Shown here piece after piece: positions 3,259-24,268 of a stretch of DNA of 57,058 nucleotides. The translations under genes were made by a program, and so were the position numbers. The DNA is from a virus. The stretch lies in IMG/VR virus record IMGVR_UViG_3300032236_000596, positions 1 through 57,058 of that record. One strand, given 5' to 3'. Positions within the stretch are counted from its first letter, which is position 1. Each line of letters starts with the position of its first letter. The notes under the pieces were generated by a model, which ran no database searches, was not told the DNA's origin, and worked only from the letters and a program-made list of their open reading frames with translations.

Positions 3259-3585
3259 ATGAAAACACTAAACAGAAACGGTATCGCCAAGCGATACGGG
3301 GTAGATTACTCAACTGTGTTCGGCTGGACTAAGGACACCTCGTTCCCAGCCTCTATTGGTAAGCGCAAGCACGGGGCGTTGTTTTGGAACGCCAATGAAG
3401 TCTATGCTTGGGTATCAACCAACCGCCCTCATAACAAAATGGTTAAGGTAATCAAGGTGGCAACACCAGTAGAACCTATCCAGCCTGTTATCCAGCCAAG
3501 CACCACCACCTTGGAGGTAATCAACCTCCTGCTCAAAGACGACAAGGCCAAGCAGCGTCTGGTCTTGGACTTGCTACTAGACTAG
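3259..3585 (+). CDS. Helix-turn-helix DNA-binding protein, excisionase/AlpA-like
   Basis: The start at 3259 is preceded by AGGTAGGAAG and is chosen over longer forms that would run back through the regulatory boxes. Residues 1-55 (LNRNGIAKRYGVDYSTVFGW ... FWNANEVYAWV) form a MerR/excisionase-like winged HTH: a helix, a recognition helix after the GVDYSTVFGW turn, and a wing ending in the EVYAWV helix. The remainder is a Pro/Thr/Val linker and a helical tail. It is a candidate regulator of the left-end transcription units, and phased boxes lie directly upstream of it, but binding is only inferred. Confidence 0.7.
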   Translation: MKTLNRNGIAKRYGVDYSTVFGWTKDTSFPASIGKRKHGALFWNANEVYAWVSTNRPHNKMVKVIKVATPVEPIQPVIQPSTTTLEVINLLLKDDKAKQRLVLDLLLD

Positions 3586-20363: not shown

Positions 20364-20866
20364 TAGACATTGAACTTTCTACTACGGGTCTTGAAATTGT
20401 CGCCTGAGGTACGGCGGGTCAACTCACGGCTGCAGACGGCGCTGCTTCGCTCGCAGTTGTTCGCCATGGTCTCTAGCACCTTGCGGTAGGCATACTTGTT
20501 CATGTGCTCTTGCTTTAGGCCTTTGATACTGCTGTCTGAATCTACCATGGCCTTGAGGGCGGTTACGGTTGTCTTTGGATTGTCCGACTGCAAACGCAGC
20601 ATGGCCATCGACTCCTCGTAATCTACCTGGCGCTCCAGTTCTTTCTCGTCTACGATGGCGCACGACAACTGGGTGTTTACGAAGTCGCTGTAGGCCGAAA
20701 ACTGGGTGTACAGAATCATCAACTCTTCGTCTCCGAGGGCGGTGATATCTTCTGGCATGCTAGGGCGTGTCAGTTCGACCTCGCGGTCGATTGGCAGTCC
20801 CTGCTTGTCTAGTGAATCGAGGACGTACTTGCTTACGTCATCCGTGATTAGGGTGCTCTTACTCAT
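20363..20866 (-). CDS. Helical protein, possible recombination mediator (UvsY-like)
   Basis: The start at 20866 gives an ATGAGTAA overlap with the Cas4-like gene, so longer forms are rejected. The protein is acidic N-terminally and helical C-terminally, ending in a basic segment (SRELTRRTSGDNFKTRSRKF). Placement between a Cas4-like nuclease and a resolvase, with RecA close by, would suit a loader of recombinase such as UvsY. Sequence similarity is too weak to claim it. Confidence 0.5.
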   Translation of the reverse strand: MSKSTLITDDVSKYVLDSLDKQGLPIDREVELTRPSMPEDITALGDEELMILYTQFSAYSDFVNTQLSCAIVDEKELERQVDYEESMAMLRLQSDNPKTTVTALKAMVDSDSSIKGLKQEHMNKYAYRKVLETMANNCERSSAVCSRELTRRTSGDNFKTRSRKFNV

Positions 20867-21737
20867 TAAATCCCTCGCATTGCTTGCACTTGTGCGCTCC
20901 ACCGACGTTGCAGTCTGGCGCAATATTCTTACTCAATGACTCTACCACGAGTTTGGCACCATCGATAATATGCTGGATGGCCCAGGTGTCTCGGCGGACG
21001 ATAAACTCCTTGACCGCCTGCGTTGGCTTTGCCTCGTACAGGACGACGGCCTCGTTAGGAACGTCTGTAACTCCCGCTAGGTTTAGCACTTCCATGTACA
21101 ACTGAATCTGGGCGATGTGCGACTCGAACGGCGAGGTTAGGTTCTTCCACGCAGTGTCGAAGTTCTGCTCGTTGGCGAACCACGCGCCCTTGTCTAGCCA
21201 CATAAATGTACCAGCACCCACCGACTTAATCTCAAGCATCAGGTCGTCGCCGAATCCCTTGAGCCAGCCATCCGAGTGACCAGTAATCATCAGCTCGTCT
21301 AGCTGGATTGGCACCTCTCGGTACTTCAGCGCGGTGCTGTCGCACGATGGGCAGTTAGATGGGCTCAGTGCCATCCAGTAGTGCTTACACGCCTTGCACT
21401 GCCAAGCGCCGTACAAGGTACCCATCTCCCAGAACCAGGTCTGCCACGTGTCGTGGATGGCGTGGCCCTGCGCGAAAATCAATTCGCTGCTGAACTTGCG
21501 TGGGGATGGGACTGGGTGATTACCCTTGAGGTGGAAGTACGATGCGCGGTGGCACCAGAACTTACTCACAATGGCCGATGGGTGTAGCCCGTCAAATGAC
21601 CGTGAGTTGTCTACGGGCTTGGACAGAACGTGGCGTTCTACCTTACCTATCACGCGGGTATTTGACTTGCCCGCGTCTACGAAATCCTTTAACTTACCTT
21701 TTTGCAGTTTTTGCAGTGCGCCTGTTTTATTACTCAT
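20859..21737 (-). CDS. Cas4/RecB-like PD-(D/E)XK nuclease with iron-sulphur cysteines
   Basis: Motifs GHAIHD (near 91), GHSDGW (D156), LEIKS (E169, K171) and HIAQIQLYM form a RecB-family nuclease core. One Cys upstream (C62) and three at the end (C276, C284, C287) match the Cas4/AddB layout for a 4Fe-4S cluster. An extra zinc-knuckle insert (C114, C117, C129, C132) is unusual. It probably makes 3' single strands for RecA-driven recombination. Confidence 0.85.
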   Translation of the reverse strand: MSNKTGALQKLQKGKLKDFVDAGKSNTRVIGKVERHVLSKPVDNSRSFDGLHPSAIVSKFWCHRASYFHLKGNHPVPSPRKFSSELIFAQGHAIHDTWQTWFWEMGTLYGAWQCKACKHYWMALSPSNCPSCDSTALKYREVPIQLDELMITGHSDGWLKGFGDDLMLEIKSVGAGTFMWLDKGAWFANEQNFDTAWKNLTSPFESHIAQIQLYMEVLNLAGVTDVPNEAVVLYEAKPTQAVKEFIVRRDTWAIQHIIDGAKLVVESLSKNIAPDCNVGGAHKCKQCEGFNE

Positions 21738-21760
21738 GCCGACGACACTAGCACACTTAT

Positions 21761-22150
21761 CTACGGTTGTCTACTCGCTTTTTTAGCAAGTTCTTCCAAG
21801 GTAGTTTTCTGGCGAATGGCCTTGCGCTTTAGGGCCGCGCGCTCGCGGTGGCTCATGCCGCCCCAGATGCCGTGGACGTAATCGTTCTTATCGGCAAACA
21901 GTAGGCACTGCATACGTACAGGGCACTCGTCGCGACCATCCTTACCAAAGCAGATAGCCTTGGCCTTGTCGGCGATTGGCTTGTATAGGTCTTTATCGCG
22001 GGGAGGGAACCAGAGGTCTGGTGGGTACACATTCTGCGGAGGCTTGGTGCCCTCGACGGTCTCAGCGCATTTACCCTTTGTCATCCAGTCATTAGACTGC
22101 GAGTAAAAGTTGTCGTCTCCGGTGGACGTTGGTTCGTAAGGTGAATGCAA
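21761..22150 (-). CDS. WhiB-family iron-sulphur transcription regulator
   Basis: Four cysteines (C28, C67, C76, C82) and the turn GIWGGMSHRER followed by a basic tail define WhiB. The usual CxxC pair is expanded to C67-x8-C76 by an FGKDGRDE insert, which is uncommon. WhiB proteins are restricted to actinobacteria and their phages and bind the housekeeping sigma factor, so this marks the host and a likely transcription takeover role. The best start is TTG at 22150, with GGAG five bases upstream. Confidence 0.9.
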   Translation of the reverse strand: MHSPYEPTSTGDDNFYSQSNDWMTKGKCAETVEGTKPPQNVYPPDLWFPPRDKDLYKPIADKAKAICFGKDGRDECPVRMQCLLFADKNDYVHGIWGGMSHRERAALKRKAIRQKTTLEELAKKASRQP

Positions 22151-22171
22151 GTAAGCTCCGAAAAGTAGTGG

Positions 22172-22237
22172 TTACTCTTCGCCCGTGTGCTCCTCGATAC
22201 AGTGTAGCAGATGTTCTCTAATAGTCAAGAAGTCGTT
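22172..22237 (-). pseudogene. Stranded original 3' end of the Hjc-like resolvase gene
   Basis: A frame between WhiB and the HNH gene reads NDFLTIREHLLHCIEEHT and ends GEE plus stop. It aligns codon by codon with the present C-terminus of the resolvase at 22718, NDFLTMREFIIECLENHT. It has no start and begins inside the last codons of the HNH gene. It is best read as the ancestral tail left behind when the HNH unit inserted and supplied a new tail. Confidence 0.7.
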
Positions 22238-22692
22238 TCTTCTGCAAACCGGCCACCCCATTGACCGCGCTCTTTTGTCCTAAGTCTGTGGCAATTAGCG
22301 CAAACTACCTCGCACTTGTCAATTTCTGCTTTAATAACTGACTTAGGTCTACGCATATTTACCAAACGAGGGACACCAGCTGACTTTATGTATTCAGGCA
22401 AATGGTCAAAATCCATAACATAAGGCGGGTATTTAACGCCACAGTCCGTGCAGGGAACATCTTTAAACGTATCTACCCAGTCGGCTAATGTGTGCCGTTG
22501 TTTACGCGCACTGTTATTAACTAATTTGGCATTTTTTCTGCCCCAGTCAGTATGAGCTTTAGTCAAACAGGTTCTGCAAGCTACGTGAAGGCCGGACCTG
22601 CCCTGTTTAATTTCTGAAGGGTAGTAAGGCCTAAAAAACTCTTCGGTGTTTGGCTTTTCTTCTTTGCATCGAGTGCATGTTTTTGTATTCAT
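22225..22692 (-). CDS. HNH endonuclease, probable homing-type mobile gene
   Basis: An N-terminal zinc ribbon (CTRCKEEKP ... CRTC) precedes an HNH core: CTDCG, MDFDHLP and KCEVVCANCHRLR. This is the recombination-endonuclease-VII/HNH type common in phage mobile endonucleases. The gene and its upstream flank are richer in A+T than the neighbours. Its stop lies inside the stranded resolvase tail, and the resolvase upstream carries a replaced end. It is therefore a recent insertion that spreads by cutting unoccupied copies. Confidence 0.85.
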   Translation of the reverse strand: MNTKTCTRCKEEKPNTEEFFRPYYPSEIKQGRSGLHVACRTCLTKAHTDWGRKNAKLVNNSARKQRHTLADWVDTFKDVPCTDCGVKYPPYVMDFDHLPEYIKSAGVPRLVNMRRPKSVIKAEIDKCEVVCANCHRLRTKERGQWGGRFAEETTS

Positions 22693-22717
22693 AAATACAT
22701 AATAGTATATTTATAAA

Positions 22718-23065
22718 TTACTTATCACCTAAAGTATGATTTTCTAAACACTCGATTATAAATTCTCGCATAGTCAGGAAATCATTTTCGTCTAAAATAC
22801 AGTAGTTGATGTCATTCAAACTTATGCCCAGAACCGGCGTTCTTCCGTCCAGAATGGCCTCAGTGGTAATCTTTTCCAGCACCTCGGACTTCATGGTAAA
22901 CGACTTTTTGCCGGTCCACTTGTGCTCAATTAGCAGGTCCTTGGACCGCACGTCGCCCTTGCGGTGCCAGAAGGCGCCGGAGGCAGCATTACGCTGACCT
23001 CCGACGGCCTTGGCTAGGCGCTTCTCGTGCTTTAGGGATTGCTTCTGGCCCTCTGATTTAGCCAA
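22718..23065 (-). CDS. Hjc-like Holliday junction resolvase / PD-(D/E)XK nuclease
   Basis: SGAFWHRKGDVRSKDLLIEH then KWT carries the catalytic pattern D38 ... E47-x-K49 of archaeal-type Hjc and phage endonucleases of this fold, and KITTEAILDGRTPVLGI follows. The length of 115 is normal. The last ~18 residues are encoded by A+T-rich DNA and duplicate the stranded tail at 22172-22237, so the 3' end has been exchanged. It is the second resolvase candidate besides the RuvC-like one. Confidence 0.75.
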   Translation of the reverse strand: MAKSEGQKQSLKHEKRLAKAVGGQRNAASGAFWHRKGDVRSKDLLIEHKWTGKKSFTMKSEVLEKITTEAILDGRTPVLGISLNDINYCILDENDFLTMREFIIECLENHTLGDK

Positions 23066-23252
23066 TCTTTAGCTCTTTCTTAACGAAGTTCCAGAAGTCG
23101 TCGTAGTCAAACGGCTCAGGAACTGGGCGTCGGTTCTGGTTAGGGTTGAACTTATCGCGGTTGGCGTGCATATAGCATCGCTTGCAATAGCCTTTCGCAT
23201 AGTGTTCTCCACCGCACTCTTGGCATGCTCTTACCGTACGTGGCCTAGCCAT
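23058..23252 (-). CDS. Small zinc-finger protein (64 aa)
   Basis: CQECGGEHYAKGYCKRCYMH is a compact CxxC-x9-CxxC knuckle, followed by Asn/Pro-rich and acidic-aromatic parts (FDYDDFWNFV). It overlaps the resolvase start by 8 bases and the RecA stop by one base. It probably acts with the recombination proteins, but the role is not shown. Confidence 0.65.
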   Translation of the reverse strand: MARPRTVRACQECGGEHYAKGYCKRCYMHANRDKFNPNQNRRPVPEPFDYDDFWNFVKKELKIG

Positions 23253-24268
23253 TATGCTCCTAGGCGTAGGGTACCCAGCACGTCCTTTTGCAGGACTTCC
23301 TGCAGGTCTACCTCTTCACGGATAGATGCAACCAACGCATCCGCGCCCTGCCACTGGCGGTCAGCGTAGCGGTAGTAGGCACCTGCTCTGGTAATAATCT
23401 TGTTGATAATACCGAGGGCCACAATCTCCTTGGCGTAGTCGTAGTCTCCCTTGTCTACGCCGCCACCGTCGTCAAAGTAGAAGTCGGTGTAGGCTACCTG
23501 GCCTGGAGGGGCCGACTTGTTCTTACGAGTGGTGAACTTGATGGTCTGTCCGACCTTGTGCTTCTCCTGGCCAGTGCCTGCCTCAATCCACTCGTCGCGC
23601 TTAACTTCTACGCGGGTGAAGAAAAAGTAGTTCTTGGCCTCTCCACCTGGGGTGGTGCGAGGGTCGCCGTACATGACGCCAATCTTGGAACGCCACTGGT
23701 TAATAATTAGACCAACGAACGGGCGCTCTCCGCCGATGATGCTGCGCTTACCGGCCTTCTCCATCTTGCGGAAGAACTTGCCCATGAGCATGGCTCCACG
23801 ACCAACGGTGAACTCGTCCATTTCCTTCTCGTCCTCAGCAGTTGGGACTAGGGCAGGCAGCGAGTCGATGACCACGCAGTCTACCTCCTTGGTCTCAATA
23901 AACTCTAGGACGGCGCTTAGGGCGACCTCCATTACGTTAGAAGTAAATACGTGAACGCGCGACGAGTCTACGCCACACATCTCTGCGTACTCTGGTACCC
24001 ACTGCTCAGCAGCAATCCAGATGGTGGTGAAGTTAGGGTCCAACTTCTGGTTAGCGGCAATCGTCTTCAGGGCCAGCGCGGTCTTGCCGTTGCTTGCCTC
24101 ACCGATAATCTCGTGCCACTGGTTAGTTGGCCAGCCTCCGCCCAGAATCATGTCAAGCGACAATGACCCTGAGGTGAAGCGGGTAGGGGCAGCAACCTCC
24201 GAGGCTAGGACAATGGTGTTCTCGCCTAGCTTCTTGTTGATGTTTGCTAGAACCTTCTGAAGTGACAT
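23252..24268 (-). CDS. recA: RecA-like recombinase
   Basis: Walker A G56-x4-GKT63 (GEASNGKT), Walker B DCVVIDSLPALVP, the conserved FFRKMEKAGKRSI region and VGLIINQWRSKIGVMYGDP then TTPGG define a RecA/UvsX-like strand-exchange protein. At 338 residues it is close to bacterial RecA length. It sits in a tightly packed set with Cas4-like nuclease, resolvases and polymerase, and overlaps both neighbours by one base. Confidence 0.92.
   Translation of the reverse strand: MSLQKVLANINKKLGENTIVLASEVAAPTRFTSGSLSLDMILGGGWPTNQWHEIIGEASNGKTALALKTIAANQKLDPNFTTIWIAAEQWVPEYAEMCGVDSSRVHVFTSNVMEVALSAVLEFIETKEVDCVVIDSLPALVPTAEDEKEMDEFTVGRGAMLMGKFFRKMEKAGKRSIIGGERPFVGLIINQWRSKIGVMYGDPRTTPGGEAKNYFFFTRVEVKRDEWIEAGTGQEKHKVGQTIKFTTRKNKSAPPGQVAYTDFYFDDGGGVDKGDYDYAKEIVALGIINKIITRAGAYYRYADRQWQGADALVASIREEVDLQEVLQKDVLGTLRLGA

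Follow-up and report, generated by a model that had tools for sequence, protein, structure and literature searches.

We propose that an HNH gene found in an uncultured phage belongs to a homing element that replaces the 3' end of the gene it enters. In this reading, which we consider likely, the unit would consist of a recoded 3' end of a Holliday-junction resolvase gene and the HNH endonuclease gene that follows it. In the window, by which we mean the whole stretch of 57,058 nt that was analyzed, the resolvase gene now is, as far as sequence can tell, a chimera of a resident body and a new tail. The displaced resident tail lies stranded between the HNH gene and a whiB-like gene.

The locus and its two resolvase ends

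The features of the locus, in gene order, are as follows.

23252-24268, minus strand: RecA-like gene, the first in the order, followed by a 64-aa ORF and then the resolvase
22718..23065, minus strand: resolvase gene (Holliday-junction resolvase, Hjc-like, 115 aa; identified by PHROG 2002, E=8.9e-24, and by its relatives)
22718..22786, minus strand: new tail, recoded NDFLTMREFIIECLENHTLGDK-stop, the current resolvase end
22225..22692, minus strand: HNH endonuclease gene (155 aa; PHROG 2255, E=2.2e-28)
22172..22237, minus strand: stranded resident (old) tail, a 66-nt frame, NDFLTIREHLLHCIEEHTGEE-stop, between HNH and whiB
22201..22228, minus strand: promoter-like TTGACT-16-TACACT, within the old tail and upstream of whiB; function inferred
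22156..22159, minus strand: GGAG, likely the ribosome-binding site of whiB (from its sequence; conserved in natives, i.e., loci without the HNH gene)
21761..22150, minus strand: whiB-like gene with a TTG start at 22150 (Pfam PF02467, E=2.4e-12), the native downstream neighbor of the resolvase
20859-21737, minus strand: Cas4-like exonuclease gene, after whiB

The HNH protein has zinc-finger-like CxxC pairs and a DFDHLP...KCEVVCANCHRxRT motif, with Cys and His residues that are invariant in A1. The catalytic motif (DFDHLP ... CEVVCANCHRxRT) is present and (near-)invariant in A1, and PHROG 2255 and 3106 were matched. The protein had no match in Pfam, its profile found none among solved structures, and the same profile run against genome contigs brought up distant relatives alone, at 37-55% across part of the protein. 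Hpy99I (beta-beta-alpha-Me), the top Foldseek match for the fold, was set aside (E=2.4, from an AlphaFold model with a pLDDT of 69). Searches of phage GenBank and plasmid DNA gave no near relative of the window locus. The TGA stop of the HNH gene lies inside the stranded frame, resulting in a 13-nt overlap that the two read in different frames. In the sequence TTGA (22225-22228), this stop also shares bases with a TTG codon of the stranded frame, where re-initiation could in principle yield an 18-residue peptide, MTIREHLLHCIEEHTGEE.

The preliminary description of this DNA, made from its letters alone, took the stranded frame to be homologous to the current resolvase end. Local protein alignment bears this out (score 70, 12 SD above shuffles), and the window is among the highest ranked of about 120 HNH loci under the same test. 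Since only 34 of 54 nucleotides are identical between the two tails, their likeness is one of codons and protein; the copies are too diverged for a nucleotide repeat of the tail to be detected in the window. The composition of the new tail had also been read as a sign of its arrival. The new tail is indeed A+T-rich (29-30% GC, against 45% in the old one), but this is weak evidence of a foreign origin, because native tails are themselves A+T-richer than the body of the resolvase gene (35-46% GC in the tails). The drop in GC begins at codon 80, which precedes the start of the stranded frame by about 13 codons, and the replacement may extend up to 13 codons further upstream than the tail itself (A+T-rich to about 22825).

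Relatives without the HNH gene identify the resident end. A search of viral contigs gave 80 close relatives of the window locus, and the HNH gene is absent from all of them. As had been predicted, the old tail is continuous with the resolvase in these relatives and runs directly into whiB where the contig reaches that far. In the window clade, which comprises the 23 distinct, closest HNH-free resolvase sequences, the native tail is typically NDFLTMREFLLQCIEEHTEEK; a short leader containing GGAG separates it from whiB, which mostly has a TTG start. The DNA of native tails is on average 79% identical to the stranded tail (best 85%) and 68% identical to the new tail (best 74%). All 23 natives are nearer to the stranded tail. 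Hence, of the two ends, the stranded frame is resident and the other one the newcomer; HNH-free relatives lack the new tail, whose presence among them would have refuted the early reading. At the protein level, the new tail agrees with same-clade natives at 13-14 of 18 positions, which is about equal to the old tail, and it differs from natives also where a promoter would impose no constraint. When we searched for the donor of the new tail, only same-clade natives were returned; the idea that it arrived with the HNH gene therefore rests on relatives of the locus. In two HNH-free contigs (L243 and L244), the resolvase frame enters whiB out of frame, and the overlap of about 35 codons is unusually long.

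Other carriers of the HNH gene

The gene recurs at this one junction. Its best protein homologues (L082-L087, L322, and the distant L093) all lie in a resolvase-HNH-whiB arrangement, in eight further viral contigs. An HNH gene is present at 7 of 211 distinct resolvase-whiB junctions, and the window and L093 are two more cases. On a tree of the RecA and Cas4-like proteins (120 rows), its presence changes at least eight times and carriers stand beside HNH-free contigs; the gene thus comes and goes. The count of changes alone cannot separate one gain followed by several losses from several gains, and the mosaics described below show that at least some of the changes were gains. Tree, junction counts, and mosaics together give a pattern of patchy presence at one site with recent transfer. 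In L093 (2452-3665), the gene is packed between its two neighbors, resolvase and whiB, through overlaps of the form TAATG and TAGTG, and the resolvase end there, ALRETHELKSQ, resembles ELRETNGEHIQ, the tail supplied by the L087 element.

Pairs of contigs with and without the gene come close to natural before-and-after records. L084 and the HNH-free L078 are identical over 1540 of 1540 nt, then only 63% identical in the 3' part of the resolvase, after which L084 has the HNH gene and identity is 97% again at whiB. L083 and L073 have the same pattern. The flanks of L087 and the HNH-free L243 are 96-97% identical, and about 520 nt inserted after CGCCAGACT bring a new tail with its stop. Two carriers, L085 and L086, are 79.3% (left) and 78.9% (right) identical in their flanks, but a 777-nt tract that begins at offset -54 (about resolvase codon 12) and extends to the whiB start differs between them by just one substitution and one indel. 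By sequence comparison, the new ends of L084 and L083 are common to other HNH carriers and clearly not copies of the recipient's own end (63% over about 195 nt). The resolvase 3' end moves with the HNH gene, and the mosaics show that the two together are the mobile unit. The early claim that the HNH gene arrived with a replacement 3' end is thereby supported, by the L085/L086 and L084/L078 mosaics and by the recurring stranded tails, except that the donor of the window's own tail was not found.

Old tails are retained in other carriers too. In L322, DFLELRDKLDRTLSE-stop lies behind the HNH gene and matches the native L187 sequence TDFLEIREKLAKPLSER better than all 2,000 shuffles. L082 is a weaker case than L322 (p=0.008): it has kept EMWRNLASTTTKR-stop, which its own HNH gene partly reads over. 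In both contigs the stranded tail contains the start codon of whiB. Of the old end, L083-L086 retain no more than a few final bases, which abut the whiB start; L093 has no stranded tail. A hairpin-like sequence, AAAACTATG..CATAGTTTTT, occurs between the new resolvase stop and the HNH start in L322 (2950-3000) and L082 (2947-3000); it is perhaps a terminator or a translation control.

The displaced tail and whiB

The native tail is under constraint beyond the protein that it encodes. In the window clade, synonymous diversity is 0.16 at codons 101-113, the last 13 of the tail, and 0.48 at codons 1-100 (p=9e-7), and it collapses around a -10-like TANANT element. This element, TA(C/G)A(A/C)T, is found at one position in all 23 natives, mostly 16 nt behind TTGAC(A/T/C). 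Both TTGACT-16-TACACT and 31 of 39 consensus bases survive in the stranded tail, even at sites of protein change (F to H). The new tail reads CTGACT/TCGAGT, with 21 of 39 consensus bases, and the conserved -10 hexamer is gone. A plain scan with a promoter consensus is unconvincing alone (3 sites against 1.8 expected by chance).

The simplest reading of these patterns is that the native tail is also the promoter region of whiB, and that its duties were split between the two copies after the insertion. The old tail is then probably not just debris and would carry signals for the expression of whiB, although the promoter activity itself is inferred. We suggest that old tails are retained because resolvase and whiB share DNA, which is a promoter-like element in the window clade and the start codon in L322 and L082.

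Mechanism, alternatives, and known homing elements

These observations could be explained by the following process. The HNH enzyme would break the resident resolvase tail of a co-infecting phage without the element. Repair would then copy the element between the 5' part of the resolvase, as the left homology, and the old tail with whiB, as the right one. The recipient would obtain a full-length chimeric resolvase, whose new tail would no longer be a target, plus the HNH gene. A stranded old tail would remain when the break falls upstream of the signals that whiB needs. One two-purpose stretch would thus be turned into two single-purpose copies, the new tail serving as protein end and the old tail as whiB signal. 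The cleavage, the immunity of the new tail, and the bias in inheritance are inferred, and the mechanism is proposed by analogy with the WHO elements of yeasts (see below). These are uncultured phages, and the tails are single and short (20 codons).

Could the HNH gene be a passenger? Phages recombine freely, and recombination tracts alone do not prove that an HNH enzyme made the break. It is thus conceivable that ordinary homologous recombination between co-infecting phages carried the gene along with the resolvase 3' end, with the nuclease uninvolved in its own transfer and the junctions between genes merely tolerant of insertions. We regard this as unlikely. The tracts finish at or near the element in unrelated pairs, HNH presence flickers at one junction across distant hosts, and other HNH genes in these phages occupy other single junctions. 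Furthermore, according to the accessible parts of two papers (PMC2988022, PMC12724721), HNH genes of this family are known as homing nucleases. Slightly less likely still is a local origin of the second tail, in which the tail was copied in place when the HNH gene inserted (e.g., through a staggered break), after which the upstream copy, no longer bound to carry the whiB signal, diverged by drift, with no foreign tail involved. Such a duplication would fit the failure to find a foreign donor and the 13-14 of 18 protein positions that make the new tail as similar to same-clade natives as the old one. However, it does not account for the new ends of L084 and L083, which differ sharply from the recipients' own sequences between flanks that are 97-100% identical and are common to other carriers, nor for the window's new tail departing from natives at positions free of promoter constraint.

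Two further explanations have very little left to support them. The old tail of the window is still readable and would restore the native protein if a group I intron or an intein were spliced out, leaving a working resolvase made of the body and the old tail. We consider this very improbable. No Rfam intron family was matched in 21700-23200 at E up to 1, or at the gathering score in eight other HNH loci, and group I/II introns were rejected on these negative searches. An intron would also leave unexplained the second homologous tail inside it, and no old tail is left in L084. The resolvase stops before a separate HNH ORF, whose own start and stop are out of the resolvase frame, which excludes an intein. 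Finally, because the window comes from a metagenomic virus record and its stranded frame is short, an assembly artefact or chance similarity could be suspected. This is hardly credible given that the architecture is repeated in the eight further contigs, that the tail homology far exceeds that of shuffled sequences, and that the synteny with the native tail and the whiB leader is exact.

The preferred reading, an element that carries a spare gene end, has its closest counterpart in the WHO elements at FBA1 in Torulaspora and Lachancea yeasts. These consist of a nuclease gene and an upstream 3' end that confers resistance, and the old 3' end serves as right-hand homology (PMC7282813). Common to both are the nuclease gene with its upstream replacement 3' end, the chimeric full-length host gene, and recurrent replacement with discordant histories of the 5' and 3' parts (PMC7282813). 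The old 3' end left downstream is met here in the window, L322, and L082, and as a few bases in L083-L086. The WHO nuclease, however, is HO-like (intein-derived, LAGLIDADG/zinc-finger), enters the aldolase gene FBA1 on yeast chromosomes, and is found in clusters of decaying fragments (PMC7282813), whereas here an HNH protein (PHROG 2255) enters a resolvase gene of phages, each site has a single element, and the old end is retained and, by inference, serves the gene that follows as regulatory DNA. The window element works like a WHO element but is not one. Mobile ORFs of fungal mitochondria, in Glomus atp6, atp9, cox2, and nad3 (PMC3630166) and in Allomyces atp6 (Paquin et al. 1994, known to us only as cited in PMC3630166), also combine an endonuclease ORF with an inserted, mostly synonymously diverged C terminus, and the native C terminus is stranded downstream (PMC3630166). 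They differ in being mitochondrial and in encoding LAGLIDADG or GIY-YIG enzymes, and the native tail is reported to be unexpressed debris in atp6 and cox2 (PMC3630166).

Among phages, the accessible parts of the literature describe other outcomes. The mobA and mobE genes of T4-like phages are likewise free-standing HNH genes that are transferred among related phages and are packed closely between other genes, but intragenic insertions split the gene into two polypeptides (nrdA, gene 60), and no replacement tail is described in the part of that source available (PMC2988022). In ShiLan, a non-splicing HNH insertion is similarly tolerated in an actinophage gene, a methylase; judging from the portion consulted, the solution there is an insert open in the host frame with the HNH gene out of frame, in contrast to the replacement tail found here (PMC11855218). 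More generally, free-standing insertions within phage genes are presented, in what could be consulted of these sources, as splitting the host gene or as tolerated in frame (PMC2988022, PMC10448857, PMC12724721, PMC11855218). We found no described case of a carried replacement gene end in phages in the open-access literature, part of which was accessible only in extracts, and a description elsewhere is possible. Hence, end-replacing homing elements are known in yeast (PMC7282813) and fungal mitochondria (PMC3630166), and the phage case is new as far as we could find.

In general descriptions, homing genes without introns or inteins either land between genes or split the gene they enter. A third solution, the carrying of a spare gene end, has repeatedly been used at the junction studied here. 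With rather less assurance than for the locus itself, we favor the view that it represents a phage family of 3'-end-replacing homing elements that invade overlapping gene pairs. The overlap would be duplicated, the upstream gene would receive an end borne by the cassette, and the displaced end would persist to provide the downstream gene with its promoter or start region. Such a family would be to prokaryotes what WHO elements are to yeasts, and would offer a natural route to the uncoupling of overlapping genes. The present case opens to testing the ways in which selfish nucleases gain access to conserved phage genes that overlap, how the end of a host gene can act as the immunity sequence of an element, and how evolution separates overlapping genes. 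It is also a warning for annotation, since lateral exchange affects the resolvase C termini of these phages and a small frame downstream of an HNH gene can be a displaced gene end with a regulatory use.

HNH genes of the same type lie at other single junctions in related phages (L334-L337, L388-L399, and L116), where no stranded tail was obvious from reading the ORFs. In a scan for tail duplications across about 120 HNH loci, L363 and L132 were trivial self-overlaps and L329 was a tandem HNH pair. Besides the window, only L364 stood out. In this unrelated contig, the HNH gene lies between near-identical copies, about 31 nt long, of an ORF tail ending in PSGNVQDFIG (approximately 2760-2800 and 3345-3380), which is possibly a second tail duplication around an HNH gene.
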